Assembly: GCA_945867505.1 (NCBI GenBank)
Contig: CAMBIM010000008.1
Location: forward strand, 1-34,942
DNA from: Chitinophaga pinensis
Lineage (GTDB): Bacteria > Bacteroidota > Bacteroidia > Chitinophagales > LD1
Direction: 5' to 3'
DNA: 34,942 nucleotides
The notes under the pieces were generated by a model. It was not told where the DNA came from. It ran no database searches and saw only the letters and a list, made by a program, of their open reading frames with translations. Positions 17,122-33,446 of the stretch are shown here, in pieces (position 1 is the stretch's first letter; each line of letters begins with the position of its first letter). Both the position numbers and the translations under genes were made by a program.

Positions 17122-19956
17122 TTGTTTTTGATTTATGTTACCGAAGATAAACTAATAAAATTGAAATTACCAAATAAATTTTCTGCCAGCGAAAAAAAAA
17201 TCTTTATCAAAGGCGCGCGCGTTCATAATTTGAAGAACGTAGATGTTGAATTGCCGAAGAACAAATTTATTGTTATTACCGGTGTTTCCGGCTCGGGCAA
17301 ATCATCGCTTACCATTGATACACTTTATGCCGAAGGACAAAGAAGATATGTTGAATCGCTTTCTTCTTATGCCCGACAGTTCCTCAATCGTATGGACAAA
17401 CCCGATGTAGATTATATCAAAGGATTGTGTCCGGCTATTGCTATTGAACAAAAAGTATCTACACGAACCACACGTTCAACCGTTGGATCGCTTACCGAGA
17501 TATACGATTATCTACGCCTTTTGTTCGCGCGCGTGGGTAAAACCTATTCGCCTAAAACGGGAGAATTGGTTACTAAGCATGAAGTAATGGACGTAGTGAA
17601 CTTTATTTTCAAGCAGAACGAGAGCGATAAAATCTTCATTTTCTTTGAAGATAAAGTGCGCGAGAAGTTTGCGGACGATTTGAAACTTCTTCTACAAAAA
17701 GGATTTACCAGAATAAAATTTGGTGATGAAATAGCAAAGATTGAAGAGTTGTTAGAGAATAAAGAGGCGTTGAAGAAGAAGCAAACTTCTATAAAAATAC
17801 TGGTAGATAGATTGGTGGTAAAACACGATGATGAAGATTTGAAATCACGCGCAGCAGATTCAGTTCAAACTGCTTTTAGCGAAGGGCATGGTGATTGTAT
17901 AATTGAATTTGGCGAAGGGAAAGCGAAATCGTTCTCCAATAAATTTGAAGCCGATGGCATTTCGTTTGAAGAACCGAATCCGAATTTCTTCAACTTCAAT
18001 AATCCTTATGGGGCTTGTAAAACCTGCGAAGGTTTTGGAACAGTAATGGGTATTGATGAAGATTTGATTGTTCCCGATAAGGAATTGTCGATTTACGAAG
18101 GTGCAATTTCTCCTTGGAAGGGTGATAAGATGAGCGAGTGGGCAGAGCCGTTGATTAAAAAAGGCGTGTTGTTCGATTTCCCAATTCATCGGTCATATAA
18201 AGACCTGGATGAAGAACACAAACAACTGCTTTGGAACGGCAACGAGTATTTTAAAGGCTTGCACGATTTCTTCCGTTACTTAGAAACACAGAGCTATAAA
18301 ATTCAATACCGCGTAATGCTTTCGCGCTTTCGCGGTAAAACAACTTGTCCCGATTGCAAAGGTTCGCGCATTCGCAAAGACTCGCAGTATGTGAAAATTC
18401 AGGGGATGAATATTTCTGAATTAACTTTGCTGCCTATTAAAGAGATGCACAAGTTCTTTAAAGATTTATCGCTCACCGAATCTGAGAACATTATTGCCAA
18501 ACGAATTTTGCTGGAAGTAAAGAGCCGTCTGCAAACTATGATGGACGTGGGCTTGGGTTATCTTACCCTCAATCGTTTATCGAATACACTTTCGGGTGGT
18601 GAAACACAACGTATAAACTTGACGCGCTCTATCGGGAGTAACCTCACTTCTTCGCTTTATATTTTAGACGAACCGAGTATCGGTTTGCACCAACGCGATA
18701 CAGAGCGCTTGATAACAGTGCTAAAAAATTTGCGCGATTTAGGTAACACGGTGGTGATAGTGGAACACGATGAAGACATTATGAAAACCAGCGACCATAT
18801 TGTTGATATGGGGCCTGAAGCCGGAATTTTTGGAGGGGAAGTATTATATAACGGCAGCCCGAAAGATATGCTGAAAGCAAAGACCCTAACCGCTAAATAT
18901 TTGAATGGCGATTTGGAAATTGCTTATACTGTTAACAGAAGAAAGCCATCTAATTGGATTGAGATAATTGGGGCCACGCAACATAACTTGAAAAACATCA
19001 GCGCTAAGTTTCCGCTTGGTGCGTTAACGGTGGTAAGCGGTGTAAGCGGCTCGGGCAAAACTACTTTGATAAAGAAAATTCTTTACCCTGCCTTAATGCG
19101 CATGTTTGATGGTGCGGGTGAGAAGCCCGGAACTTTCCGAGAGATGAAAGGCGATATGCAACGAATTACTGCTGTAGAAATGATTGACCAAAATCCGTTG
19201 GGAAGAAGTTCGCGCTCTAATCCGGTAACCTATGTAAAGGCGTATGATGGTATTCGCGATTTATATGCGCGTATGCAGCTTTCAAAACTCCGGGGTTATC
19301 AACCAAAAGATTTTTCCTTTAACGTAGAGGGCGGCAGATGCGAAACCTGCAAGGGTGAAGGCGAAGTAGTGGTGGAAATGCAATTCCTTGCCGATGTGCA
19401 TTTGAAATGTGAAATCTGCAATGGAAAAAAGTTTAAAGAAGAAGTTCTTGAAGTTCAATACAAAGGCAAGAATATTTATGAAATTCTTGAACTGAGTGTA
19501 GACGAAGCAGTCGAGTTTTTTCAAGAAGACAGAGACATAACCTCCAGACTTCTCCCTTTGCAGAAGGTTGGTTTGGGTTATGTAAAGTTGGGTCAATCCA
19601 GTTCAACATTAAGCGGTGGTGAAGCACAGCGGGTTAAGCTGGCTTCGTTCTTAAATAAAGGCGCAGCACCAAATCCAATCCTTTTCATTTTCGATGAACC
19701 TACTACCGGTTTGCACTTTCACGACATCAATAAGCTCATGTCAAGTTTCAATCAATTGATAGAAGCGGGACACTCTGTAATTGTAATTGAGCATAACATG
19801 GATGTGATAAAATGTGCCGATTGGCTGATTGATTTAGGCCCTGAAGGGGGCGATGAGGGCGGGCAACTTGTCTACCAGGGTATACCCGAGGGAATCATTG
19901 GTGTAAAAACTTCGTATACAGCTAAGTATTTGCAACCTAAATTGCACTTGAATTAA
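17122..19956 (+). CDS. uvrA: Excinuclease ABC subunit A (UvrA)
   Basis: DNA damage-recognition ATPase of nucleotide-excision repair; 944 aa, normal length. First Walker A is GVSGSGKS (54-61), followed by RRYVESLSSYARQFL; ABC signatures are LSGGETQRI and LSGGEAQRV, with D-loops LDEPSIGLHQRD and FDEPTTGLHFHD; second Walker A is GVSGSGKTT. The UvrB-binding region (about 130-260) is present, so this is not the shorter UvrA2. Zinc residues: CETCKGEGE ... CEICNGKKF and CPDCKGSRI are kept, but the first CxxC of the insertion-domain finger is missing (KFEADGISFEEP precedes CKTCEGFG). No ATG fits the frame; start is a TTG at 17122 or, as likely, at 17161 (LKLPNKF). Confidence 0.96.
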   Translation: MFLIYVTEDKLIKLKLPNKFSASEKKIFIKGARVHNLKNVDVELPKNKFIVITGVSGSGKSSLTIDTLYAEGQRRYVESLSSYARQFLNRMDKPDVDYIKGLCPAIAIEQKVSTRTTRSTVGSLTEIYDYLRLLFARVGKTYSPKTGELVTKHEVMDVVNFIFKQNESDKIFIFFEDKVREKFADDLKLLLQKGFTRIKFGDEIAKIEELLENKEALKKKQTSIKILVDRLVVKHDDEDLKSRAADSVQTAFSEGHGDCIIEFGEGKAKSFSNKFEADGISFEEPNPNFFNFNNPYGACKTCEGFGTVMGIDEDLIVPDKELSIYEGAISPWKGDKMSEWAEPLIKKGVLFDFPIHRSYKDLDEEHKQLLWNGNEYFKGLHDFFRYLETQSYKIQYRVMLSRFRGKTTCPDCKGSRIRKDSQYVKIQGMNISELTLLPIKEMHKFFKDLSLTESENIIAKRILLEVKSRLQTMMDVGLGYLTLNRLSNTLSGGETQRINLTRSIGSNLTSSLYILDEPSIGLHQRDTERLITVLKNLRDLGNTVVIVEHDEDIMKTSDHIVDMGPEAGIFGGEVLYNGSPKDMLKAKTLTAKYLNGDLEIAYTVNRRKPSNWIEIIGATQHNLKNISAKFPLGALTVVSGVSGSGKTTLIKKILYPALMRMFDGAGEKPGTFREMKGDMQRITAVEMIDQNPLGRSSRSNPVTYVKAYDGIRDLYARMQLSKLRGYQPKDFSFNVEGGRCETCKGEGEVVVEMQFLADVHLKCEICNGKKFKEEVLEVQYKGKNIYEILELSVDEAVEFFQEDRDITSRLLPLQKVGLGYVKLGQSSSTLSGGEAQRVKLASFLNKGAAPNPILFIFDEPTTGLHFHDINKLMSSFNQLIEAGHSVIVIEHNMDVIKCADWLIDLGPEGGDEGGQLVYQGIPEGIIGVKTSYTAKYLQPKLHLN

Positions 19957-19986
19957 AATTCAGTGTTACCCAGATTGACATTAACT

Positions 19987-22900
19987 TTGAAGCAGAAAAT
20001 ATTTACGCTGTTATTTATTGCTTTTGCCTGCTCGCAAGCTTTTGCGCAGGATTTTTATGGCTTTGTAAGAAAGGCAGACAGCACTTCCTCGACCATCTAT
20101 CAGGCAACGGTTGAAGTAACCGAAAACTATAAGCCGTTTAAAACCATCAAAACTTATTTTGATGGGGCGTTCAAATTTACTCCGGCTAAGGACCAACTAT
20201 ATACGCTCAAAATTTCTTACAGCGGGTATAAGGACACGGTATACACCATTACTACAGATAAGAAAGGAATACCATCGGCACAAAACGTAACTGTAAAGCT
20301 GAAGAAAGACGGTATGCGGTTAATGGGTATAATTAAAAGCGCTGATCAAGATTTTCCGATAAAGGACGCGACCATTATTTTGAAGAACGTAATGACGCGC
20401 CAGGAAAACAGACTGACCACTGATATTGACGGGCGTTACAATTTTAAAATGGAATACGAAACCAACTATCGTGTTTCTATTGATAAACGTTCCGAAGGAG
20501 TTTTTAATAAATACAAAGACACCACTTTCTACATTTCTACCATTGGTTTTAATCAGCCGCTAGATTACAAGTTGGATATTGTTTTAGATGCGATGCTTTA
20601 TCCCACTACGACAGCGCGCGAAGGATATGATGCAAACAAACCGATTGCTTCTAATGTAAAACCGGTAATTGATGTAACAAAGTCTTCTATTGCTGAAAAG
20701 CAACCATTTGTAGCAGAAGATAAAAAGCTGAAAAGCGTGCAGGATGTAAACGCTAAACTTCAGGCAGAGCTAGAAGAAGCAAAAAAGGAAATTGACGATT
20801 TAAAGAAAAAAGAAGCTGAGCAGAAGAAAGCTACCGCTGGAGGAATTACGGTAAGTAAGAAGCAAAGAGTAAAGGAAGACCCGAATTTAGAAGTAGTAGT
20901 AATTCGCGATGAACCGGTGGCGAATAGAAAAATGGGTGATTCTGTTTTGGCCAACATTGCGAAGCAGAAAGAAGATGCAGAGCAACGCAGGAAATTATTG
21001 GAAGCAGAAATTGCTAAACAGAAAACGGAAGAAGCCAACAGAAGAGCGCAGGATTTAGCAGCACAACAAAAAGCAAAAGAAGATTCTATTGCCGCAGCTA
21101 AAGAAGAAGCCGATATACGCATGGTGGCTTTAGCTATGCAAAAGCAAAAAGAGAAAGATGATTCAATAGCACAAGAAAAAGTAAGACTTGAAAAGCTTGC
21201 ACAGGAAGCCGCTGTAAAAAAACTGCAGGACGATTTATTAGCGAAGACAGCTCAAGAAAAAGCTGCCAACGAACTAGCGCTAAAGAAGGCTAAGGAAGAT
21301 TCTGTTACGCAAGTAAAAACGGAGCAGGCAAGAGAGGCTAAAGAACTTGCGTTAAAGAAAGCCTATCAGGATTCAGTTAGCAAAGCCGTGGCTGCTATAC
21401 ACGCTAGATTTGTTCAGGATTCTGTTGCCCGTACAAAGGCAGAACAGGACAGAGCAGCAAAAGAATTGGCTTCAAGGAAAACTTACGAAGATTCTATCAA
21501 TAGAGTATTTGCAACGGCTAGAGTGCGTGAAAAATTTGTTTTGGATTCGTTAGCTAAAGCAAGTGCAGCACTACAAAAGGCAGCAAAAGAACTGGCACTT
21601 AAAAAGGCAACAGAAGATTCTGTTACCAGAGTTCAGTTTGCCCTACGCACTAAATTTGTTGCCGACTCTATTAGTAAAGTAGCACAGTTGCGCGTAGCCA
21701 AAGAACAAGCAGATAAAAAAGACTTGAGCGATTCATTGGCTAAAGTCCGGTTGGCGGTGCGAAAAAAATTTACCGAAGATTCTATTGCACTTGTAACTGC
21801 ACAAAAAGAAAAAGCAGCTAAAGAATTTGCTGTGCTTAAAGCGTATGAAGATTCTGTAAGCAAAGTAGTTGCCTCTATGCGTGCAAAGGCTGTTCAGGAT
21901 TCTGTATTAAAAGTAAAAGCAGAAGTGGCGGCAAAAGAAAAAGCTAAACAGGATGCTATTGCACAAGCAAAAGCAGAGCAAACGAGAATTGCGAGCGAGG
22001 CGGCATTAAAAAAAGCGTATCAGGATTCTACGGCTAAAGCATTGGCGGACGTTCGAGTTAAGTTTGTAGCAGATTCTATAGCTAGAGCCCAGGCAGAACA
22101 AGCAAAAGTTGAAAAAGAACTTGCAGCACTCAAAGCGTATGAAGATTCAGTAAGCAAAATTGTTGCATTCATGCGTGCAAAATCTGTTCAGGATTCTGTA
22201 TTGAAAGTAAAAGCTGAAGTAGCGGCAAAAGGAAAAGCTAAACAGGATTCTATAGCACAAGCAAAAGCAGAGCAGGCAAGAGTGGCGAGCGAACTGGCAT
22301 TGAAAAAAGCCTACCAAGATTCTACTGCTAAAACATTGGCTGCAGTTCGCTCTAAGTTTGTGGAAGATTCATTGGCAAGAACCCAAGCTGAACAAGCAAG
22401 AGTGGCGAAAGAACTTATTGCGCGCAAAGCGTATGAAGATTCAGTAAGCAAAGTTGTTATTTCTATGCGTGCAAAATCTGTTCTGGATTCTTTAGCAAAA
22501 GCAAAAGCAGAGCAGGCAAGAATTGCCAGCGAATTGGCTTTAAAGAAAGCTTATCAGGATTCTACGGCTAAAACATTGGCTGCTGTTCGTTCTAAGTTTG
22601 TAGCAGATTCTTTAGCCAGAACAAAAGCTGAACAGGATAGAGTTGCTAAAGAATTGGCTTCAAGAAAAACCTACGAAGATTCTATAAACAAAGTACTTGC
22701 TGCTGCCAACGCGCACGAAAAATTACTGGTAGATTCTCTAACCAAAGTAAAAGTGGCTGAACTAAAAGCTGCCAAAGATTTGGCGTTGAAAAACGCGAAA
22801 GAAGATTCGGTGGCAAGAGTTCAGTTAGCGGTGCGCACCAAGTTTATTGCTGATTCTATTAGCACAGCAGCACAGTTGCGCCTGGCCAAAGAGCAAGCCG

Positions 22901-24318
22901 ATAAAAAGGTCTTGAATGATTCTATAACCAAGGTGCAATTGGCAGAGCGCAAAAAATTTACCGAAGATTCTATTGTGCTGGTAAGTGCACAAAAAGCAAA
23001 AGCGGCTAAAGAGTTGGTTGTGCGTAAAGCGTATGAAGATTCGCTGAACAAAGCTGTAGCGGCTGCTCACGCTAAGTTTGTTCGGGATTCAGTCACCAAT
23101 GCAAAAGCTACTGTAGTTGCCCGCCAAAAAGCGCGACAAGATTCCCTGGAGCGCGTAAAGGCAGAACTGGGAAGAGATGCCGCGCTTAAAAAAGCCTATG
23201 AAGATTCGCTGGGTAAGGCAAGTTTGCATACTGAGGCAAAAGAGTTGCAGGAATCGCTGCGCCAGTTGCGGGATGAAAAGGAAAAAATTGCGCGCGAAAT
23301 GGAAGAGCGCGAAAAACTGGAAACCACCAAGGCCATGCAGGATTCTATACTTCGCGCTAAAGCCGAAAGCGAACACAGGGCATTAGTAGAATCGCTAAGT
23401 CGCACAAAAGCGGAATTGCAAAAAGCAGAACAGGAATTACTAGCGCAGAAAAAGAATGAAGAAGCACAGACCTCTGCCCGCCAAAAAACAATGGATGATT
23501 TAAAGGCAGAAAAAGATCGTATAACATGGGAAGTAAACGAGCTAAAGAATAAAGAAGCCGCAGAACAAAAAATTCGCCAGGAAAATCTGCGCAACCAGCA
23601 AGCTAAAGAAGCAGTAGAAAAAATACAAGCGGCAGAAGAGCAACTAAAAGTTGAAGCCCGAATTAAAGAAGAAGCTAAACAAAAAGCCGAAGCGGAAACA
23701 AAAGCTCGTGAAGAAAATATTAGCCAGCAAAAGGCGCAGGAAGCAGCAGCTAAATTAGCTGCAGAACAACTGGCACAAGTCGAAGCAAAAGCAGCGGTAG
23801 AAAAAATAAAAGCAGCAGATGAGCAGGCAAAAGTTAAACAAGATGCAAGGCAAAATGTGGAGGAAAAAGCGGCAGAAAATCAGCAAGCCGATGAACGGAT
23901 AAAAGTAGTGCAGAAACAGGTGGATACTATTACCAATAGCACAGATATAGCCAACACAGAACCCAAAACGGATTTTGGAACCTTACCCGCAGTATTATTT
24001 GACAAGAACGAATATCTATTGAGTGCTACTGCCAAAGCAGAACTAAAATTGGTAGCGCAAAAACTTATAAAAGTGCCGCAGCTTACAGTGAATATTTACG
24101 CTTTTGCTTCGCAGGATGAAAGCAATTCGCGTCAAGTTTCATTACGCAGAAGCGATGCGGTGCTTCGCTTTTTTATAGATAATGGCGTGGCTATTGAGCA
24201 GGTAAAATCTTTCTACTACGGCACTACTGTTTCTCGTAACGGCTGTGTAAACCCCAACTGCCCTGAAGGATTGCAACAGCAAAATCGCTCGGTAGCGTAT
24301 CAGATGGGAATGCATTAA
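19987..24318 (+). CDS. Giant repeat-built exported protein with C-terminal OmpA-like domain
   Basis: About 1,443 aa. I place the start at TTG 19987, giving signal peptide KQKIFTLLFIAFACSQAFA/Q; a GTG at 19963 would add eight residues. Order: two CNA-B/carboxypeptidase-regulatory-like domains (about 20-95 and 105-190), a linker, a first charged helix (about 245-280), then from about 365 to 1120 a Lys/Ala/Glu-rich region with about 35 'DS' dipeptides spaced alternately 16 and 24 residues, a 40-residue (120-bp) repeat. A non-repeated coiled coil (about 1125-1305) precedes an OmpA-like domain (about 1325-1443; QDESNSRQVSLRRSDAVLRF), predicted to hold peptidoglycan. The OmpA-like domain ends with a Cys pair (GCVNPNCPEG). 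Likely periplasmic or outer-membrane anchored; role perhaps structural or motility-linked. It follows uvrA by 30 bp. Confidence 0.85.
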   Translation: MKQKIFTLLFIAFACSQAFAQDFYGFVRKADSTSSTIYQATVEVTENYKPFKTIKTYFDGAFKFTPAKDQLYTLKISYSGYKDTVYTITTDKKGIPSAQNVTVKLKKDGMRLMGIIKSADQDFPIKDATIILKNVMTRQENRLTTDIDGRYNFKMEYETNYRVSIDKRSEGVFNKYKDTTFYISTIGFNQPLDYKLDIVLDAMLYPTTTAREGYDANKPIASNVKPVIDVTKSSIAEKQPFVAEDKKLKSVQDVNAKLQAELEEAKKEIDDLKKKEAEQKKATAGGITVSKKQRVKEDPNLEVVVIRDEPVANRKMGDSVLANIAKQKEDAEQRRKLLEAEIAKQKTEEANRRAQDLAAQQKAKEDSIAAAKEEADIRMVALAMQKQKEKDDSIAQEKVRLEKLAQEAAVKKLQDDLLAKTAQEKAANELALKKAKEDSVTQVKTEQAREAKELALKKAYQDSVSKAVAAIHARFVQDSVARTKAEQDRAAKELASRKTYEDSINRVFATARVREKFVLDSLAKASAALQKAAKELALKKATEDSVTRVQFALRTKFVADSISKVAQLRVAKEQADKKDLSDSLAKVRLAVRKKFTEDSIALVTAQKEKAAKEFAVLKAYEDSVSKVVASMRAKAVQDSVLKVKAEVAAKEKAKQDAIAQAKAEQTRIASEAALKKAYQDSTAKALADVRVKFVADSIARAQAEQAKVEKELAALKAYEDSVSKIVAFMRAKSVQDSVLKVKAEVAAKGKAKQDSIAQAKAEQARVASELALKKAYQDSTAKTLAAVRSKFVEDSLARTQAEQARVAKELIARKAYEDSVSKVVISMRAKSVLDSLAKAKAEQARIASELALKKAYQDSTAKTLAAVRSKFVADSLARTKAEQDRVAKELASRKTYEDSINKVLAAANAHEKLLVDSLTKVKVAELKAAKDLALKNAKEDSVARVQLAVRTKFIADSISTAAQLRLAKEQADKKVLNDSITKVQLAERKKFTEDSIVLVSAQKAKAAKELVVRKAYEDSLNKAVAAAHAKFVRDSVTNAKATVVARQKARQDSLERVKAELGRDAALKKAYEDSLGKASLHTEAKELQESLRQLRDEKEKIAREMEEREKLETTKAMQDSILRAKAESEHRALVESLSRTKAELQKAEQELLAQKKNEEAQTSARQKTMDDLKAEKDRITWEVNELKNKEAAEQKIRQENLRNQQAKEAVEKIQAAEEQLKVEARIKEEAKQKAEAETKAREENISQQKAQEAAAKLAAEQLAQVEAKAAVEKIKAADEQAKVKQDARQNVEEKAAENQQADERIKVVQKQVDTITNSTDIANTEPKTDFGTLPAVLFDKNEYLLSATAKAELKLVAQKLIKVPQLTVNIYAFASQDESNSRQVSLRRSDAVLRFFIDNGVAIEQVKSFYYGTTVSRNGCVNPNCPEGLQQQNRSVAYQMGMH
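21085..23350 (+). repeat. 120-bp (40-aa) tandem repeat array inside the giant gene
   Basis: In-frame diverged repeats, each with the pattern (E/Q)DS-N14-(x)DS-N22. The best-preserved neighbours are around 22261-22380 and 22501-22620, where units 240 bp apart agree at most bases (for example GCAAAAGCAGAGCAGGCAAG in both). A second level of duplication relates about 21433-21900 to about 22621-23090, offset about 1,188 bp. Confidence 0.85.
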
Positions 24319-24648
24319 TTACCATCTTTTCCTTTGTACAGCCCTCCTAAAACAGGATGGGAAAGTGAAGTCTTTCAAATTTGAGACGAAATATCTTTTG
24401 ATAAATTCTCCTTCTGTTTTAAGTGGAGATAACAAAGGGCATAGGTTGTAGTTAACCTAACCTGTATAAATCCACCATTGATTTCTGTATTAACTTCCAC
24501 CAACTTACTTTGACAAAACACTTACGCATTGTACAATAGTGTTTGTGTGCCAGACAGTAATTCCGGGTTTTCACCCCATCGGGGGATTCCATTCCACTCA
24601 TCATCTTGCATCTTTGCATCATCAAATCACAAACAAAAACAAACTAAC
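24319..24648 (+). other. Intergenic region and structured leader of the Asn/Gln-rich protein gene
   Basis: 330 bp without a supported gene. TTACTTTG at 24505-24512 could be a -7 box. It is followed by an imperfect hairpin at 24516-24544 (AAACACT ... AGTGTTT around ATTGTACAAT) and a small GC hairpin CCCCATCGGGG at 24574-24584. A second possible -7 box, CATCTTTG, lies close to 24610. The ORF frame stays open back to 24529, but the residues encoded there have no signal-peptide or family character, so I treat it as leader. Confidence 0.45.
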
Positions 24649-25320
24649 ATGACAACTACAATCAAAACATTCCTGACGTCACACAAAACAACTATTATGA
24701 TTGCCTGTACAGCTTTAGTAATTGGAGCTAAATCATTTTCTACTTCGGGTTACAACAACCAACAGCAAATGCCAGCACCGCAACAACAAACTATGCCGCA
24801 GCAGGAACAAAGTGCACAAGTTCCCCAAGGCTACAACCAACAAATTCCAAAGCAAAACATCAATAACGAAAAAGAAAGTTTTTATGATTCTTGGTTTGAT
24901 GAGGATAACCAACAAGAAAACTCCAATGGCTATAACAACCAAGGAAACCCAAACTATAGCGGCTATACCACTAGCGGCAATGCATCAACCAATTACAATA
25001 GCGCTTCGGCTAACAATACTTACAGCACGGCAAACAATCAGGCAGATTACACCTCTGGCTGGAAAGAGCAACAAGCCCTCCAAGACGGACAACACGAGCG
25101 CTTCAACGACTACATTCGAGATGAAACCAAATACAACGATGCCGAAGGCAACACCTACAAGCTGGCCAGCGGTTACGATAACAACTATGTAAACACAACC
25201 AACAATACTTACATACAAACCAACGATGCAAGTTTTGACCCTAACGTCAATAGTACCTCTAGCTACACAGCCGTTACACCAACAGATTACACTCCAGCAA
25301 CTACCACTGGTATCGAGTAA
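24649..25320 (+). CDS. Exported Asn/Gln/Tyr-rich low-complexity protein
   Basis: 223 aa from the ATG at 24649 (MTTTIKTFLTSHKTT). Residues 16-30 (IMIACTALVIGAKSF) form a hydrophobic export signal or single membrane anchor. The rest is low complexity: QQQ/PQQ runs at 38-75 (QQMPAPQQQTMPQQEQ), then Asn, Tyr, Ser, Thr and Gly repeats (YNNQGNPNYSGYTTSGNAS). A short charged block in the middle (KESFYDSWFDEDNQ and DGQHERFNDYIRDETKYND) may be the only folded part. No family is recognised. Composition resembles prion-like or surface-adhesive proteins. It is followed by a perfect terminator hairpin, so it is probably the last or only gene of its transcript. Confidence 0.7.
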   Translation: MTTTIKTFLTSHKTTIMIACTALVIGAKSFSTSGYNNQQQMPAPQQQTMPQQEQSAQVPQGYNQQIPKQNINNEKESFYDSWFDEDNQQENSNGYNNQGNPNYSGYTTSGNASTNYNSASANNTYSTANNQADYTSGWKEQQALQDGQHERFNDYIRDETKYNDAEGNTYKLASGYDNNYVNTTNNTYIQTNDASFDPNVNSTSSYTAVTPTDYTPATTTGIE

Positions 25321-25401: not shown

Positions 25402-25770
25402 TTAAAGAAATTTACTTAGAAAGAAGCCTCCCATTACTGCAAGATAACACAGCAACAAATTGGCAAACACGTTAGTAATTGCTACTTGAAAATTACCGGC
25501 AAAAGCCAACGAAAAAGTTTCGTAGCTAAAGGTAGAGAAGGTAGAAAAACCTCCACAAAAACCAGTGGAAATCAGCAGCCGAACATTATCGTTATCTATT
25601 TGCTTATGAAAAAAATAACCAAGTAGTAAGCCCAGAATAAAACTGCTAATAGTGTTTGATAGAAAAGTAGCTATTGGAAAAATACTTGTAACAGAAGCAA
25701 GATATTTTGATAAAGAAAACCGAACAACACTACCTAATCCACCACCAATAAAAACTAAAACAAAGTTCAT
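25402..25770 (-). CDS. crcB: Fluoride channel CrcB/Fluc
   Basis: 122 aa with four hydrophobic segments, the length of a single-domain Fluc channel that exports fluoride as an antiparallel dimer. Motifs: GGGLGSVVRF (9-18), LSNTISSFILGLLLGY with the conserved Asn (37-52), and GFCGGFSTFSTFSYE (71-85), which supplies the Phe-box and central Na+ site. Its ATG overlaps the stop of the WecA-like gene (ATGA), so translation is coupled to the exopolysaccharide operon. No fluoride riboswitch is visible at its start, which lies within the upstream coding sequence. Confidence 0.94.
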   Translation of the reverse strand: MNFVLVFIGGGLGSVVRFSLSKYLASVTSIFPIATFLSNTISSFILGLLLGYFFHKQIDNDNVRLLISTGFCGGFSTFSTFSYETFSLAFAGNFQVAITNVFANLLLCYLAVMGGFFLSKFL

Positions 25771-26879
25771 GGTAATTTGCTTTTGGCTTGGTGCTTCTTA
25801 TTGCCAACGTTATACAAAACCTGAAATAGCAAGAACATTATACCAAAGTAGGCAAAGGCTACAAAAGTTGTTACCCAAGTCCATTCAACAATATGCTCTA
25901 CTATAAAAAGTACAGCCGGTAAAGACATCAGCGAAACAGCAATTAAGGTAAGTGCCACCAATTTATCCGATAAGCCTAAGTAGGCTAAGTGATGTGTAAT
26001 ATGGTCTTTCCCCCCCACAAAAGGGGATTGCTTTCGCATCAATCTACGAATAGTAACAGTCATTGTATCAATCAATGGCACTATAAAGAATAGCATAGGC
26101 ACCACAAACTGTTTTAGCTGAATAAACTCGGTAGACCCTTCGTCTCTAAACCCCCAAAAAAATAAAATGCTGGTAGAGGCCAGAAAAACACCTAGGAATT
26201 GACTGCCGGTATCGCCCATATAAATTTTAGAAGGATTCCAATTGAAATATAAAAAGCCTGTCAATGTACCAAACACACCTACCAACATAACCAAGTAAAA
26301 AACACTTAGTGTATGTCCGCTAATAGCAACTACTGAAATTAAACCGAGGATTATACTCATAGAAATAGTCGTGGTAATGGCATCCATATTGTCCAGCATG
26401 TTAATGGAATTCATTAAGCCAATTACCCATATAGTAGTAATAGCAAAGTCGAAAGCTGGATTGCCTGATACTTTTATGTATACATCGGAGATGATTAAAA
26501 TAAATGCACAGGATAACTGCGTTATAAATTTTGCAAGCGGATTGGTGTTGTAAGCATCATCAGCCAAACCCAACAAAAAACCTAAACTGGATGAAGCTAT
26601 AATGCCAATAAGGTGTTTATCCAACAAATAACTTGTTTGCCTTGGTAATGTTCCAATAATGGAAATTGAAACTAAGAACACAATAAAGAAAGAGATTCCG
26701 CCAATAGCCGGCTTTACATTAGCCGACCAGCGAACTTGGGTAGTGGTGCCATCAGAATTTCTTGCCCCTAAATTAAACGAGAACTTGAAAAAAAGCCAAT
26801 TAATTAGAAACGAAAAAAACGCACTTATTAAAAAAAATAAGGCTAGAAAGGTGGCTATATACTGATCGTCTGCCATCAT
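25767..26879 (-). CDS. WecA/MraY-type polyprenyl-phosphate sugar-phosphate transferase
   Basis: 370-aa polytopic membrane enzyme that should transfer a sugar-1-phosphate (GlcNAc-like) from UDP-sugar to undecaprenyl phosphate and so start repeat-unit synthesis at the inner membrane. Family motifs: LADDAYNTNPLAKF with the Asp pair 107-108, NSINMLDNMDAIT (157-169; usually NxxDGxDG, here DNMDA), YMGDTGSQFLG (220-230) and the cytoplasmic loop GGKDHITHHLAYLG (289-302). About ten hydrophobic segments are visible. It starts 3 bp after the wzc-type gene and overlaps crcB by 4 bp. The altered Gly positions resemble other Bacteroidetes members and do not imply loss of activity. Confidence 0.9.
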   Translation of the reverse strand: MMADDQYIATFLALFFLISAFFSFLINWLFFKFSFNLGARNSDGTTTQVRWSANVKPAIGGISFFIVFLVSISIIGTLPRQTSYLLDKHLIGIIASSSLGFLLGLADDAYNTNPLAKFITQLSCAFILIISDVYIKVSGNPAFDFAITTIWVIGLMNSINMLDNMDAITTTISMSIILGLISVVAISGHTLSVFYLVMLVGVFGTLTGFLYFNWNPSKIYMGDTGSQFLGVFLASTSILFFWGFRDEGSTEFIQLKQFVVPMLFFIVPLIDTMTVTIRRLMRKQSPFVGGKDHITHHLAYLGLSDKLVALTLIAVSLMSLPAVLFIVEHIVEWTWVTTFVAFAYFGIMFLLFQVLYNVGNKKHQAKSKLP

Positions 26880-26882
26880 TTC

Positions 26883-29345
26883 TTACTCAGATTTACTAAA
26901 AAGTTTTTTCCAAAAACTTTTTTGCTTTGGTTTGGTATCGGTGGTATAATATCCTTCTCCGTATTTCTTACCATAGTAACCGTAACCGTAACCATAACCG
27001 TAGCCATAACTGTAACCATAATTATAGCCATAACTATAACCATAGCCCGATGCTCCTCGGCCGTAATCGTTAATTACCACCGACAAGTTTTTAATTTTAC
27101 TTTCAGTCATAATCTTATTTACGTTCTGAACAAAACCTCTATTGGAGTAAGCTGCTCGGAAAACATACATCGGATAATCAGCGATTTTCAATATTTCCAA
27201 AGCATCTGTTACCAAACCAATAGGTGGAGTATCAATTACAATATAGTCGTACCTCGTTTTTAGATAGTCCAATAACTCATGTAGCTTCGGCAACAAAATT
27301 AACTCTGAAGGGTTTGGCGGCACGGGACCCGATACAATAAAATCTAAATTAGGAATACCGGTTTCCATAATACACTCATCAATCCCTGATTGACTGCTTA
27401 AAATAGTACTTACACCACGATAGGCATCTACGCTAAATATTTTATCTAACCTTGGCTTCCGCATATCAAAATCAAGAATGATAACTTTTTTGTTTAACAG
27501 ACTCAAGATAGCTGCAACATTTAGCGAAACAAAAGTTTTTCCTTCTCCCGGAATGGTAGATGTAGTAGCAATAATTTTTGTACCGGGTGTGCCGCCAATA
27601 AACTGAAGCCCTGAACGAACTGCACGGAATGCTTCCGTGATAGTTGACTTAGGGTCTTGCGTAACTACAATTTGAGAACGAACTAATTCATCTTTATACC
27701 TTGGTATAACACCTAAAAGTGGTGCTCTTGTTTTTTTCTCTACATCATCAATAGAAATAATAGTATTTTGTAATAAGTAACGAATAACAATGATTACCAA
27801 ACCTAGAATCAAACCAGTTAAAACACCTGCAAGTTTTACAAAAGTTTCTCTAGGCGATATAGGTACTTTTGAAACAAAAGCTCTTTGAAGAATAACATAG
27901 TCTGATACAATTCCAGCGCTAGCGATAAGATAATTGGACTTTTCGCTATATAGGTTTAATACAAAATCGTTTTTAATAGCCGCCATTTTATCCAACCGGT
28001 CAAACTTGTGTTGTAAATCAGGAATGGTGAACAATTCAGCCATATATTTATCATGTTCTTCTTTAAGTAGTTTTTGTTTGGTGTGTAAGCCATTTATGGC
28101 ATTGTCAACATTTTTAGAAAGCCTGATTTTTCCTTCTTCTATCTCCTTATCCTTCAACCTAACATTTGGGTGGCCCTGCGTTACTTCTAACATCATCAAA
28201 TTGCGGTCTTTCTGCGTTTTATTTATCTCCGCTACCTCTGCACCAAAAAAGATAGTCTTTTCACGAAAAGTAAATGTGGGCAGTGTAGAATAATCGTTTT
28301 CCTTTTGAACGGCTCTCTTGAAGAGAACCAACAATTGAAGATCATTGTCAATATCACGAAATGCTTCCTCAAAACTAAGCGACTGATCGGCTAACAGACT
28401 AAGATAGTTGCATCCTTTATCCATATATCCCTCAGTAATTTTGAGTGCAGATATAGAATCCTGAAATTTATCGAAAGCGTAACCAAAAGTGTCAATCTGA
28501 GCATCTAAGAAGCGTAAGATGCTTACGAAACTTTCTCTTTTCCGCTCTAAATCATACAAGATAAACTCATCTGATATTTTTTGAACTATATCTTTAGCTC
28601 TTTCTGGGTTTCGGTCTTTAAAAATCAACGCTACGGTTTGCGTTGCAGGGTCAATTGGCATTACTGCTAGTTTATTGGCTATATCCGCTTCAACATCTGC
28701 ACGGGCTAAAAACTTAAAATAGTAAAGACCGTTTACATCTTCAGGTGATATTGGTCGGTAAAAGGAAGTTTGTATGGTGAAAAATGGAGAAGAAAGCACT
28801 TTTCCTGTATCTGCAGAGTACTCATAATCTTTACCATTCATGGTAAAAGAGACATAATATTTTTTACCGCTTAAAATTTTAAGGTAGATTGGTGTGGCGT
28901 AAATACTCTCATCCTTTATTCGCCCCTGCACCCTAAATGGAGATGAGGTATAAAGCTCCGTAAAAATAAATTTTGTTTTCCCTTCTTTATAATACCCAAC
29001 TTCTAATGGAAGTTGATCAATAACTCTATCCAGTAATAGCTTAGAAGTTATGAGTTGCATCTCGCGACTAACTTCGGAGGGATCATGCTCAACTACCAAC
29101 CTTTGCACTGTAGAGCCTAACAACTGTGTTGACTTTTCAGTTTTGAGCATTAAAGTCGTACTTGACTCAAAAATACGTGGTGTGTATCGTAAATATACTA
29201 GCGACAATATAATGCATGTAACTACCACCAGTATAACCCATACAATAGAGGCATTAACCACATAAATCATCAACCCAAGATTAAAATCCTCTACCGGGTT
29301 GCTAAACGATGTTTCTTTAATTTCTGAGTTCGAATTATTTTCCAC
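26883..29345 (-). CDS. Wzc-type polysaccharide co-polymerase / autophosphorylating tyrosine kinase
   Basis: 820 aa. A Wzz-like chain-length domain is bounded by two membrane segments (about 29-51, VVNASIVWVILVVVTCIILSL, and about 505-527, LAGVLTGLILGLVIIVIRYLL) with a periplasmic coiled coil between. The C-terminal BY-kinase domain has Walker A STIPGEGKT (about 593-601), Walker A' VIILDFDMRKPR and Walker B YIVIDTPPIG. The tail has 16 tyrosines in about 34 residues (GYGYSYGYNYGYSYG-type), the expected phosphorylation cluster. It would control export and length of the exopolysaccharide with the Wza-type protein encoded just upstream, whose gene it overlaps by 11 bp. Confidence 0.95.
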   Translation of the reverse strand: MENNSNSEIKETSFSNPVEDFNLGLMIYVVNASIVWVILVVVTCIILSLVYLRYTPRIFESSTTLMLKTEKSTQLLGSTVQRLVVEHDPSEVSREMQLITSKLLLDRVIDQLPLEVGYYKEGKTKFIFTELYTSSPFRVQGRIKDESIYATPIYLKILSGKKYYVSFTMNGKDYEYSADTGKVLSSPFFTIQTSFYRPISPEDVNGLYYFKFLARADVEADIANKLAVMPIDPATQTVALIFKDRNPERAKDIVQKISDEFILYDLERKRESFVSILRFLDAQIDTFGYAFDKFQDSISALKITEGYMDKGCNYLSLLADQSLSFEEAFRDIDNDLQLLVLFKRAVQKENDYSTLPTFTFREKTIFFGAEVAEINKTQKDRNLMMLEVTQGHPNVRLKDKEIEEGKIRLSKNVDNAINGLHTKQKLLKEEHDKYMAELFTIPDLQHKFDRLDKMAAIKNDFVLNLYSEKSNYLIASAGIVSDYVILQRAFVSKVPISPRETFVKLAGVLTGLILGLVIIVIRYLLQNTIISIDDVEKKTRAPLLGVIPRYKDELVRSQIVVTQDPKSTITEAFRAVRSGLQFIGGTPGTKIIATTSTIPGEGKTFVSLNVAAILSLLNKKVIILDFDMRKPRLDKIFSVDAYRGVSTILSSQSGIDECIMETGIPNLDFIVSGPVPPNPSELILLPKLHELLDYLKTRYDYIVIDTPPIGLVTDALEILKIADYPMYVFRAAYSNRGFVQNVNKIMTESKIKNLSVVINDYGRGASGYGYSYGYNYGYSYGYGYGYGYGYYGKKYGEGYYTTDTKPKQKSFWKKLFSKSE
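26970..27050 (-). repeat. Gly-Tyr dipeptide microsatellite in the kinase tail
   Basis: A degenerate 6-bp repeat (plus strand CCATAAC / CCGTAAC) encodes 12 successive xTyr pairs, x being Gly, Ser or Asn. Both Tyr codons and all Gly codons vary, so the array is old or under selection at the protein level. Confidence 0.8.
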
Positions 29346-30117
29346 TAAACGTTTTGATTAATGCAATGGTTGTTAAAATAGTGCTTGCCCAAGCAAATAC
29401 AGGAGCTAATTCTTTTAAAACATCTGATGCAGGTCTTCTTCTTGGCTCAATGTATATAATATCGTTTGACTGAACGATTAAATCTGCATTACGCATTCCT
29501 TCTATGCTCGATAAATCAATAACACTTATTTGAGGATTTTTTAAATCACCCCTTATCACTTTTATTTTGTAAGATTTAAGATCCGTTGCAATGCCGCCTG
29601 ATTTAGCAATTACTTCAAACAAATTAGTAGGTGCTTGATTTAATGTTATTACACTTGCTGTTGATCCTGTATAAACAAATACTCTTCGGTTAGAAACGGT
29701 TAGAACTATATATGGGTCAACAAATAGGTTTGAATATTTTTCAGCTAATATACTTTCCAATTCGGTTTCTGTATAGCCCTTCACATAGAATTCACCTATG
29801 ATAGGCAACTTAGCAAAGCCTTCATTATCCACTAAGTAATTAACGCTAAGGGTACCTTGTGTGGTCCCGCCTGCTCCTGAAACGGAATTTCCATTAGTCC
29901 CACCTAAAACATCAATTAGTCGAAACCCATCTCTTGAAAAAGCCTGTAAAGTAAACTGATCGCCTGTTTGGATGACATACTCATCAATCTGCTTTTTTGC
30001 AAGTTCAAAAAACTGATAGTCTTTTTGCTGAAACATAATGTTTGGATAAAACACTTTGCAAGCCGAAATCGACATCAGCAAAAAAGAAATTACAGAATAG
30101 TAAACGAGTTTTTTCAT
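29335..30117 (-). CDS. Wza-type polysaccharide export lipoprotein
   Basis: 260 aa from the ATG at 30117. The N-terminus KKLVYYSVISFLLMSISAC is a lipoprotein signal with lipidated Cys20. A poly-export domain follows (about 45-130: YVIQTGDQFTLQAF, NYLVDNEGFAKLPIIGEFYVKGYT), then an SLBB-like domain (about 140-215: VFVYTGSTASVITLNQAPTNLFEVIAKSGG). The C-terminal hydrophobic helix (FAWASTILTTIALIKTF) matches the outer-membrane barrel-forming helix of the family. A longer open frame to 30144 lacks an export signal, so I reject that start. The gene overlaps the kinase gene by 11 bp and follows a glycosyltransferase gene by 36 bp. Together these form the export complex. Confidence 0.92.
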   Translation of the reverse strand: MKKLVYYSVISFLLMSISACKVFYPNIMFQQKDYQFFELAKKQIDEYVIQTGDQFTLQAFSRDGFRLIDVLGGTNGNSVSGAGGTTQGTLSVNYLVDNEGFAKLPIIGEFYVKGYTETELESILAEKYSNLFVDPYIVLTVSNRRVFVYTGSTASVITLNQAPTNLFEVIAKSGGIATDLKSYKIKVIRGDLKNPQISVIDLSSIEGMRNADLIVQSNDIIYIEPRRRPASDVLKELAPVFAWASTILTTIALIKTFSGK

Positions 30118-30153
30118 TGCTACAAACTTATTAAAAAAACACAAGGCATTTGT

Positions 30154-31332
30154 TTATAAAAGTGAATAATAGAGTTTCTCCATATCTGCACAAAGCCGCT
30201 GATAACTGAATTTATTTCGCACATAATCGCTGCCTTTTTTTGAGAAGTTAAATCTCATTTCATCATTTTCAATTAAACGCAAAAGGTTTTCTGCAAATGC
30301 TTTTTCGTTACCTACCGATGAAAGCAAAGCGGTCTCATTTTCAAGCACAATATTTTCTATTCCGCCAACGTTGGTGGAAACAATGGGCTTGCCTGAAGCT
30401 TGGGCTTCAATCAAACTAACCGGTGTGCCTTCGTTATTAGAAGTAAGTGCGATGATATCCATACCGGCATTTGAAACATCAATCTCTTTTATCCAACTGG
30501 TGAAGGTTAGAATGTTTTTCTCTTTCAAGTTTTCATTATCGAAACTCAAACCAAGTGACTTCGCCAATTGCTCAATCTTCACTCGCTCTTCGCCATCGCC
30601 AATTATAAAGGCACGCACTTTTTTTGTTGTTCTTTCGGAAACAAGCTTCAAAGCTTTCAAAAATAATTCATGGTTTTTAATTGGAACTAATCTTCCTACA
30701 ATGCCAATAGCAATTTCATCATCATCTAAATTGTATTCTGTTCTGAACTTATTTCGCTTCTCCAGCTGGTTCTCTTCAAATTTTTTCAAATCAAATCCAA
30801 GAGGAATTATTTCAAATTTTCCTAAGGGTGCTATCTTGTATTTTTCGGTTAGTTCTTGCTGTTGAATTTCGCTAAGCGTAATAATTTTTGTGGTGCGCTT
30901 AGCTAAGTAACGTTCAATTTCTAAAAATACCCTGGTTTTAGCTGGGCTGAAATAGGAGTGAAAAACGTGACCATGAAAAGTATGCACAATAGCTTTTACT
31001 CCGCTGTGGGCTGCAGCTAATCTTCCTACCGCTCCAGCTTTTGCGGCATGGGTGTGAACTATATCAGGCTTAAACTCGGCAATTAGTTTTCGGAGTTTGT
31101 AATATGATTTTGTATCGCGCAAAGGATGCAACTCGCGATACATTTCAGGAATGTAAACCGGATGCAAATCCAAATTCTTTACAATAAATTCTGAACTTTC
31201 TTCTGCATCGTCTTTCATACCCGAAACCAATAAGGTTTCAAATTCAGGAGCCATGTATTTACTTAAATACGCAGCGTTGAAAGTGGGTCCGCCTAAGTTT
31301 AAGCGGTTGATGATACGAAGTACGCGAGGCAC
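30154..31332 (-). CDS. GT4-family glycosyltransferase
   Basis: 392-aa GT-B-fold glycosyltransferase. The N-terminal acceptor domain begins VLRIINRLNLGGPTFNA with the Gly-rich loop; DIVHTHAAKAG and TFHGHVFHSYF are typical of the family. The C-terminal nucleotide-sugar domain shows IGIVGRLVPIKNHEL and the E-x7-E pair in NNEGTPVSLIEAQASGKP. It should add a sugar to the lipid-linked repeat unit at the cytoplasmic face. The start is GTG at 31332; the overlapping ATG two bases upstream is out of frame. It is the first gene of the export operon, after a 179-bp gap to asnB. Confidence 0.93.
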   Translation of the reverse strand: MPRVLRIINRLNLGGPTFNAAYLSKYMAPEFETLLVSGMKDDAEESSEFIVKNLDLHPVYIPEMYRELHPLRDTKSYYKLRKLIAEFKPDIVHTHAAKAGAVGRLAAAHSGVKAIVHTFHGHVFHSYFSPAKTRVFLEIERYLAKRTTKIITLSEIQQQELTEKYKIAPLGKFEIIPLGFDLKKFEENQLEKRNKFRTEYNLDDDEIAIGIVGRLVPIKNHELFLKALKLVSERTTKKVRAFIIGDGEERVKIEQLAKSLGLSFDNENLKEKNILTFTSWIKEIDVSNAGMDIIALTSNNEGTPVSLIEAQASGKPIVSTNVGGIENIVLENETALLSSVGNEKAFAENLLRLIENDEMRFNFSKKGSDYVRNKFSYQRLCADMEKLYYSLL

Positions 31333-31472
31333 ATGGGTTGTTTAAATACGAAATATGAATTACCAAATACGAAAGAAATACAAACTACTTCGTTAGCATG
31401 ATAACTGTATTCATAATTTTCAACTAAGCGAGGGTTATTGTTTAGAATTTCGGAATACGCTTCTCGTTTCTT

Positions 31473-31507
31473 TAACTTCTAAAAAGTTTCAAACTTTTTA
31501 GAAGTTA
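31473..31507. terminator. 17-bp perfect inverted repeat after asnB
   Basis: TAACTTCTAAAAAGTTT and AAACTTTTTAGAAGTTA are perfect complements around one base (effective loop about 5). It starts 4 bp after the asnB stop. It is AT-rich with no T-run downstream on the minus strand, so it may slow or end transcription before the export operon. Confidence 0.5.
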
Positions 31508-31511
31508 TGTC

Positions 31512-33413
31512 TTAGGATAGATACTTCTTATACCAATATTGAAACACCAGCAAACCCCACAAAGTTGCATGTACATCTCCGGGGTCATTGGTAAAAAGCT
31601 TCCGTTTTACTTTTTCAATTTCGTTTACATCAAAAATATTTTGTTGTTCAACGAATTTCTTTTCAAGCAATTCATTTTCTATTAATGAGCGCAAACCGGT
31701 TTGCATCCATTTCAGTAATGGAACTTCAAACCCGTGTTTTGAACGATTAAATAATTCATCGGGCAATTCATTTCTAAAAGCATCTTTCAAAATTTTCTTT
31801 CCTATGGTGGAATCAATTTTATAAGATACCGGAAGCGAGAAAGCAAAATCAACTACGGTATAATCAAGCAGCGGCACACGAACTTCTAAACTGTTTGCCA
31901 TGCTCATAAAATCAACTTTAGTAAGCATATCATTAGGTAGAACCATTTGTGTATCGGCAAACAGAATATCGTTTAGCTCCCCCTCATCTTTTACAGCATC
32001 TAACACAAAACGCTTTCTGTTTTCAAGTTCTTGTTCGCTTATAGCGTTTTTATTTTTCAGCAAACCAACTGCTTCGGTTTGCGAACTAAAACTGCACCAA
32101 CGCCAATATCGTTCAGCGGCAGATAGCTGCAAGCCTTCGCTGTAGCGGGTTAGTTGACGAAACAGATTCCCAAACTTGGAATGGCGGGACTTAGGCAGCA
32201 TTTTAAAAAATGGCAACCCTGCCTGCATCAAAAAATTGGTTGCATTTTTTCTGCGCGCACGTAGCTCCGCATTGTGTTTATTGTAACCTGCAAACAATTC
32301 ATCGCCACCATCGCCTGAAAGGGCAACGGTAACTTTCTCTCTAGTCTTCTGGCTTAAAATATAAACCGCAATGGCCGATGAATCGGCAAAGGGTTCATCT
32401 ATATAATCGAGAATGGAAAAAATGTTGGCAAACATTTCATCGTTAGAAACAGAGAACACGGTATGGTTGGTGCCGAACTTCTTTGCCACAAGATTCGCAT
32501 ACTTTGTTTCGTCAAAATACGGTTCATCTTTAAAGCCAATGCTGAATGTATTTAGCTGCGAAAGATTTTTTGCAGCGCACGAGGTGATGATTGACGAATC
32601 AATTCCTCCGCTTAAGAATGAGCCAAGAGGAACATCTGAAACCAATCTTCGCTGTACAGATTCTTCCACCAATTTTCGCAGCGTTGCTTTTGCATCATCA
32701 TAACTAATTTCGTTTTCAGCAATTCTCTTCCCCGGTTCATAAGGGATAGAATAAAATTTTTCTGTGCTGAAATTTCCTTTCGAATTAATTACTGCAAAAC
32801 TTCCTGGTTGTAGTTTTTGAATGTTCTTTAGCATCGAATTTGTACCCGGTACATAATTCAGTTGCAGATAAAGGGCGAGGGTGTTGTAGTCCAATTCCTT
32901 CTTAATTGGGAATTGCAGAATCGCTTTCAGTTCGGAAGCAAAGAGCAATATTTTATCATCGTTGTAAACATGCAATGGTTTAATACCAACCCTATCGCGC
33001 GCAAGAAATATTTCGTCCTTCTGATTATCGAAAACAGCGAAGGCGAAAAAGCCGTTTAAGTGTTGCAAACAATCTTTACCCATCCGGATAAAAAGATTCA
33101 GCAGCACTTCTGTATCGGATGTTGAATTGAATTTTAGATCTTCCAGAAACTTCTCTTTCAGTTCGCGGAAATTGAAAATTTCTCCATTGAAAATAATGGT
33201 GAATCTTCCGCTGTCATCCGTCATGGGTTGATTGGCGATAGAAGAAGTGTCTATAATAGAAAGCCGCGCATGAGCAAAGCCAACTTGTGGGGAAAGTATT
33301 TTTGTTTGTTGCGAATCGGGCCCGCGCTTAGCCAGCGTTTTTATGGCGCTTTGCAAAGTACCTTCAAGTTGATGGTTAAGGTCTTTCGAAAAATATCCCG
33401 CAATTCCACACAT
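31512..33413 (-). CDS. asnB: Asparagine synthase (glutamine-hydrolysing), AsnB-like
   Basis: 633 aa from the ATG at 33413, chosen because it puts the catalytic Cys at position 2 (MCGIAGYF) as needed for the N-terminal glutaminase; an upstream in-frame TTG would add three residues and bury it. The glutaminase part shows KRGPDSQ, FNGEIFNF and STSDTEVLL; the synthetase part shows the PP-loop SGGIDSS (268-274), LSGDGGDELFAGY and LEVRVPLLDY. It should convert aspartate, glutamine and ATP to asparagine. AsnB homologues within polysaccharide loci sometimes amidate sugar acids instead; location beside the export operon leaves that possible (inference). Confidence 0.93.
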   Translation of the reverse strand: MCGIAGYFSKDLNHQLEGTLQSAIKTLAKRGPDSQQTKILSPQVGFAHARLSIIDTSSIANQPMTDDSGRFTIIFNGEIFNFRELKEKFLEDLKFNSTSDTEVLLNLFIRMGKDCLQHLNGFFAFAVFDNQKDEIFLARDRVGIKPLHVYNDDKILLFASELKAILQFPIKKELDYNTLALYLQLNYVPGTNSMLKNIQKLQPGSFAVINSKGNFSTEKFYSIPYEPGKRIAENEISYDDAKATLRKLVEESVQRRLVSDVPLGSFLSGGIDSSIITSCAAKNLSQLNTFSIGFKDEPYFDETKYANLVAKKFGTNHTVFSVSNDEMFANIFSILDYIDEPFADSSAIAVYILSQKTREKVTVALSGDGGDELFAGYNKHNAELRARRKNATNFLMQAGLPFFKMLPKSRHSKFGNLFRQLTRYSEGLQLSAAERYWRWCSFSSQTEAVGLLKNKNAISEQELENRKRFVLDAVKDEGELNDILFADTQMVLPNDMLTKVDFMSMANSLEVRVPLLDYTVVDFAFSLPVSYKIDSTIGKKILKDAFRNELPDELFNRSKHGFEVPLLKWMQTGLRSLIENELLEKKFVEQQNIFDVNEIEKVKRKLFTNDPGDVHATLWGLLVFQYWYKKYLS

Positions 33414-33419
33414 GTATTT

Positions 33420-33446
33420 CAAGTCCCCTTTTAGGGGATTTAGGGG
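33420..33446. repeat. Short hairpin / possible dispersed repeat between rpoN and asnB
   Basis: AGTCCCCT and AGGGGATT flank TTT, forming a compact stem, and are followed by TAGGGG. It occupies most of the 34-bp rpoN-asnB gap. A motif of the type CCCCTAAATCCCCT...AGGGGA is one I associate with repeated intergenic elements in Bacteroidetes; unverified here. Confidence 0.5.

Follow-up and report, generated by a model that had tools for sequence, protein, structure and literature searches.

We find that the open reading frame at 19963-24318 (+ strand, GTG start) of the 34,942-nucleotide stretch of DNA analysed here (the window) encodes a 1451-aa protein that is probably an exported, peptidoglycan-directed O-glycoprotein, with a spacer predicted from its sequence to form a heavily O-glycosylated helical tether. 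The Asp-Ser (DS) pairs that recur along this spacer look like about 37 O-glycan attachment sites, and conservation rests on the tripeptide D-S-(I/V/L/T/A/M) rather than on a fixed register of the helix. We consider a sugar-coated tether more likely than a molecular ruler because spacer length differs up to eleven-fold between relatives.

The gene lies directly 3′ of uvrA (17122-19956, + strand), with 6 bases between the uvrA stop codon and the start of the open reading frame. The start at 19987 used in the initial annotation is an in-frame TTG, and the signal peptide is retained from either start. The gene order ECF sigma (opposite strand), uvrA, giant-protein gene recurs across the genus. We found no spacer paralogue in the protein's own genome and no plasmid copy of the gene. 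All sequence data are MAG assemblies, in which repeat arrays could be collapsed or broken, and the source organism is uncultured. The window also holds a promoter-like site (11/12) at 24510-24537 and an open reading frame at 24529-25320 that encodes 263 aa, very rich in Tyr, Asn, Gln, Thr and Ser and without a Pfam match. At 25402-33422 are CrcB and then an apparent exopolysaccharide gene set on the - strand, which includes a GT4-type transferase, a Wzz/tyrosine-kinase type ATPase, a polysaccharide export protein, a glycosyltransferase and, judged by eye, an asparagine synthetase.

The initial annotation described a signal peptide, two beta domains, a long helical region and an OmpA-like C-terminus, and this architecture is supported by Pfam, AlphaFold2 and alignments (all parts on the + strand). 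The signal peptide at residues 1-27 (19963-20043) was judged from the sequence and the AQ cleavage site aligned in orthologs, not by a dedicated program. A convincing lipobox is absent: by eye, AFAC has no acceptable -2 residue, and several orthologs have no Cys there. Two CarboxypepD_reg-like beta domains follow, one at about residues 31-113 (20053-20301; Pfam PF13620/PF13715, AlphaFold2 strands with pLDDT of about 90) and the other at about residues 118-208 (20314-20586; second Pfam stretch, ortholog alignment and AlphaFold2), the latter being the best-conserved portion of the family. The CarboxypepD_reg match has a value of 1.3e-12 over its two stretches. A linker of low model confidence, in which AlphaFold2 predicts one helix (about residues 253-290; linker 20587-20937), leads to the sequon array (20938-23349), an Ala/Lys-rich spacer that is predicted to be helical from the model of residues 775-915 and is marked out by its DS counts and by selection on DS. 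The end of the spacer (23350-23976) is K/E/Q/A-rich and has no DS, only one D-T-I. The C-terminal OmpA-like (peptidoglycan-associated) domain, at 23977-24315, has two invariant cysteines and was identified by PF00691, profile matches and ortholog alignment. PF00691 was detected only when the C-terminal piece was searched alone (39.5 bits against a cut-off of 27.2), and among the profile matches to Pal/OmpA/YiaD structures the best was 5wtp (6e-12).

We sought a functional lead for the beta pair with Foldseek of the N-terminal model and rejected what it returned, since these were only generic Ig-like/Cna-B-type matches with low TM-scores; a match to carboxypeptidase D was seen at 2.1 Å over 87 columns. 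A PDB sequence search with the beta pair gave marginal matches only, the best being a piece of a TonB-dependent receptor (0.059). Such beta domains in TonB-dependent receptors have been linked to TonB interaction in work on periplasmic force transducers (PMC12204202), and by analogy a TonB interaction may be taken for this pair as a lead only.

We count 37 DS in the whole protein and 36 in the approximately 1,100-aa spacer, which bears out the roughly 35 marks of the initial annotation. Residues 301-1120 contain 35 DS against 3.7 expected from composition, with a maximum of 12 in 5,000 shuffles. The alternating 16/24 spacing that had been described stands in part: gaps of 16 (12 times) and 24 (11 times) dominate, with 18 (4 times) and 22 (twice) behind them and 40 as the commonest DS-DS distance; however, the alternation is not strict and is interrupted here by gaps of 18, 21, 22 and 42. 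The array is most regular at residues 446-1081 (21298-23205). In the G007 ortholog, the alternation is nearly perfect across about 1,280 residues; other clades of the genus have spacings of 24-13-16-16 or 17/26 instead. Conservation of DS spacing among homologues was not borne out, as the spacing grammar is limited to one genus and varies within it. The exact DS-16-DS-24-DS pattern, searched in DNA, was observed in 10 of 30 family genomes, every one from a single genus, and always on contigs with the giant-protein gene. Within a 395-genome sample of the phylum, it was found only in the source genome and in one 8-base simple repeat elsewhere. The latter, at G416:C15:65318-65445, was rejected as a similar DS array in other Bacteroidota, being an unrelated run of the repeat GATTCGGT. 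Regular 16/24 spacing is not required by a sequon, and repeat ancestry alone may explain it.

The O-glycosylation sequon of Bacteroidota is D-(S/T)-(A/I/L/V/M/T), a rule established by mutating sites in B. fragilis and by glycoproteomic work on several species (PMC12871550, PMC8729774), and in B. fragilis Glu cannot stand in for Asp (PMC12871550). All 36 DS of the spacer precede V, I, L or T, and together with the single D-T-I they bring the spacer to 37 sequons. Across the family spacers, D-S-(AILVMT) accounts for 493 of 504 DS compared with a background of 41.5%. DS outnumbers ES by 505 to 32 even though E is twice as common as D, matching the published no-Glu rule. The ratio of DS to DT, at 18:1, exceeds the slight serine preference of known glycoproteomes and counts against reading the marks as sequons. 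In approximately 720 kb of contigs from two members of the genus (G004 and G008), with signal peptides assigned by a simple heuristic, D-S-(AILVMT) occurs 118 times in predicted exported soluble proteins versus 46 expected (2.56-fold) and 62 times in cytosolic-like proteins versus 70 expected (0.88-fold). The DT form is enriched 1.41-fold in these two genomes, so DS is enriched above DT there in the same direction as the serine preference of the spacers, and the controls gave 0.64 for E-S/T, 1.04 for N-S/T and 1.09 for the reversed motif. At the level of sequence, every feature tested for in a general O-glycosylation substrate (export, sequon and enrichment in the lineage) is present in the giant protein, which makes it a predicted substrate.

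DS pairs are retained between orthologs whose spacers have otherwise diverged. The G005 and G013 spacers (55% identity) keep 41 of 42 DS, whereas of the remaining serines 7 of 29 are kept and of the remaining aspartates 3 of 10. Between G000 and G017 (52%), 26 DS and one DT are retained out of 29. In both comparisons with G005 a single DS is missing, and as part of DSE it does not belong to a sequon. Changes at the third residue fall within the permitted set by 42:3 versus 172:67 at other I/L/V (p = 0.001 over three pairs, p = 2e-5 with five pairs pooled), and retention of DS serines versus other serines gives p = 4e-23, all of these p-values being indicative because the ortholog pairs are partly related by descent and the repeats were copied from each other. 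At about half of the retained DS sites, the serine codons differ synonymously. We conclude from these alignments that the predicted sequons are maintained by purifying selection while the sequence of the spacer diverges.

The giant-protein family is restricted to one Chitinophagales family. A search with the beta pair matched 28 of the 30 genomes of that family at an E of 1e-83 or better, while the best E outside it in a sample of the order was 1e-17; all named matches are uncultured MAGs. The variation in repeat number that the initial annotation had proposed to count is large, with 1 to 67 sequons (the maximum in G007) among orthologs. DS is scarce in other genera; the exception is G024, where 288 residues contain 14 sequons that do not follow the 16/24 order. 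G008 and G009 (L046 and L041; 338 and 349 aa) encode only the pair of beta domains, followed by a short tail, and neither a spacer nor an OmpA domain was found in the next 1.5 kb downstream; since only the beta pair is kept in these two, it is the conserved core. Some orthologs are interrupted in the assemblies. The array is cut by a contig end in G006 and G011. In G013 and G014 (L040 and L034), a frameshift or an assembly error within the array divides the ortholog between two overlapping frames, and in G016 (L038, 6318-7659) the ortholog stops at 447 aa within the array, as a real truncation or on a chimeric contig. The next same-strand genes in G016 resemble mreD and PBP2, judged by eye.

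AlphaFold2 was applied to the first 302 residues of the mature protein and to residues 775-915 of the spacer, a stretch of three units that aligned with in-register G007 segments. The latter was modelled as a monomer and gave a single helix (2-140) running through the DS uninterrupted, with a pLDDT of 84.5 and a pTM of 0.31. Isolated rods commonly give a low pTM, and for such sequences AlphaFold2 is inclined toward helix. Hydrophobicity has no dominant peak at 3.5-3.67 residues per turn, and the harmonics at 4.0, 4.4 and 5.0 are stronger. The helix is thus not amphipathic near 3.6 residues per turn, a coiled-coil rod is unsupported, and we rejected the canonical coiled coil. A serine stripe on one face is ruled out by the phases of the gaps (16, 24, 13 and 18). 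Structure and coiled-coil prediction of consecutive units, as suggested in the initial annotation, therefore returned the continuous helix but no coiled-coil register.

Several other readings of the array can be considered. In the initial annotation, the 40-residue unit was taken to be a molecular ruler or spacer that fixes a distance across the periplasm or to the surface, which would suit the 16/24 regularity seen in some members of the genus, the continuous helix predicted for the modelled spacer, and the position of the beta and OmpA-like domains at opposite ends. This is improbable, as ortholog spacers range from 127 to 1389 aa within one bacterial family, the spacer is lost together with OmpA in G008 and G009, and the spacing itself varies. 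A straight helix of 1,098 aa would measure about 165 nm (1.5 Å per residue), far beyond the width of the periplasm, so that it must bend, lie along the wall or extend outside; periplasm-spanning TolA spacers have just 110-335 aa (PMC12204202). It is also unlikely that DS marks a structural feature of the helix (a cap, a hinge, or the register of a coiled coil or bundle) followed by a hydrophobic core position. The unit is indeed conserved beyond the tripeptide, with I/V/L after DS in 87% and Lys at -4 in 81%, and in-register G000 and G007 segments are 47-60% identical. However, the predicted helix passes straight through DS, hydrophobicity does not peak where such a register would place it, the two DS of a unit differ widely in their angle to the mean direction of hydrophobicity, and D is not replaced by E. 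Additionally, F/Y/W follow DS in 2 of about 504 cases, versus 82 at -3 and 100 at -2, and other, unrelated proteins exported in the genus are also enriched in DS-hydrophobic.

We give very little credence to neutral expansion of a simple coding repeat, by which the array would be duplication debris with no selected role. Tandem duplications are visible in the DNA of the array at 21820-22694 (repeats of 294 and 240 bp, ~80%), copy number is highly variable, and the contig breaks in G006 and G011 would also fit this explanation; against it, DS is retained while neighbouring sequence diverges and codons drift synonymously. A short conserved motif that is regularly repeated could instead be a docking site for a periplasmic partner or ligand and not a glycan acceptor, which we regard as highly improbable: no partner is evident, the only neighbours shared in the genus being uvrA and the ECF sigma genes, and the motif coincides exactly with the sequon of the phylum and is enriched across exported proteins.

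Returning to the O-glycosylated tether, we infer glycan attachment, peptidoglycan binding, localisation, a partner for the beta pair and the tether role along the following lines. The Sec signal peptide would direct the protein to the periplasm. There, the O-glycan of the species would be transferred by the Bacteroidota oligosaccharyltransferase to the serine of each D-S-(V/I/L/T), at about 37 sites. These sites, one per roughly 20-30 residues, would point in all directions around the Ala/Lys-rich helix, and the glycans may keep this K/R-rich helix soluble, extended and protease-resistant, as in a bottle brush. The C-terminal OmpA-like domain would hold the protein at the cell wall, and the N-terminal beta pair may bind a partner, probably an outer-membrane protein. 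The spacer would then serve as a tether or brush; its length would drift as repeats are duplicated and lost, while selection retains the sequons. Docking of the OmpA-like domain on peptidoglycan is uncertain from its sequence. PorE contacts DAP through Asp576, Asn584 and Arg591 (PMC7192894), and wall binding is uncertain here because, of these three, just the Arg sits canonically (invariant in 20 of 20 aligned domains); the Asp and Asn are off canonical spacing. The DAP-binding loop is remodelled family-wide to A-S-A/Q-D-E with an invariant Glu, reading ASADE in most orthologs and ASTGE in three (G005, G010 and G013).

By analogy, the giant protein may act as a PorE/Pal-type tether between outer membrane and wall, with a TolA-like helical spacer. 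PorE, a T9SS lipoprotein (TPR-WD40-CRD-OmpA) proposed to tether the outer membrane to the wall, shares the CarboxypepD_reg and the C-terminal OmpA-like domain; in contrast, the giant protein has no TPR or WD40 by Pfam and no convincing lipobox, and it has two N-terminal CRDs and the approximately 1,100-aa spacer. Separate CRD-matching proteins of PorE-like size (about 740 aa) are present in the same genus. Domain II of TolA, in the gamma-proteobacterial Tol-Pal system, is likewise an Ala/Lys-rich helical spacer with strain-variable repeat number, and in E. coli the tolA repeat number influences stress tolerance (PMC3477136). Unlike TolA, the giant protein has an apparent cleavable signal peptide in place of an N-terminal membrane helix and no TolA C-terminal domain or Pfam match, and its spacer is more than three times the longest reported domain II (335 aa, PMC12204202) and carries sequons. 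SprE/PorW of the T9SS translocon is a helical periplasmic Bacteroidota protein that bears several such O-glycans and depends on them for stability (PMC10994853); it differs in being a TPR lipoprotein and in having about eight sites, and the giant protein shows no homology to it (no Pfam TPR). The known O-glycosylation substrates of B. fragilis, T. forsythia, P. gingivalis and F. johnsoniae resemble the giant protein in export and in the exact tripeptide, whereas the giant protein has about 37 sites (and its G007 ortholog up to 67), placed quasi-periodically along a single predicted helix. Our searches of open-access papers turned up no described counterpart with such a number and quasi-regular order of sites.

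It is possible, though we put it at somewhat under an even chance, that these proteins form a lineage-specific class of periplasmic bottle brush, in which a single helix of up to about 1,400 residues carries O-glycans at 16/24-residue intervals, is tethered to the wall and can be expanded by repeat duplication, as a prokaryotic analogue of mucin or proteoglycan within the envelope. Neither the purpose of O-glycosylation in Bacteroidota nor the enzyme that transfers the oligosaccharide has been established (PMC12871550). With 37-67 predicted sequons under purifying selection, in a family whose spacers cover an approximately eleven-fold range of lengths and hold between 1 and 67 sites, a protein of this kind would offer a natural test case for the role of the glycans in solubility, protease protection or extension, and its 40-residue repeat could be tried as an acceptor in assays for the Bacteroidota oligosaccharyltransferase.
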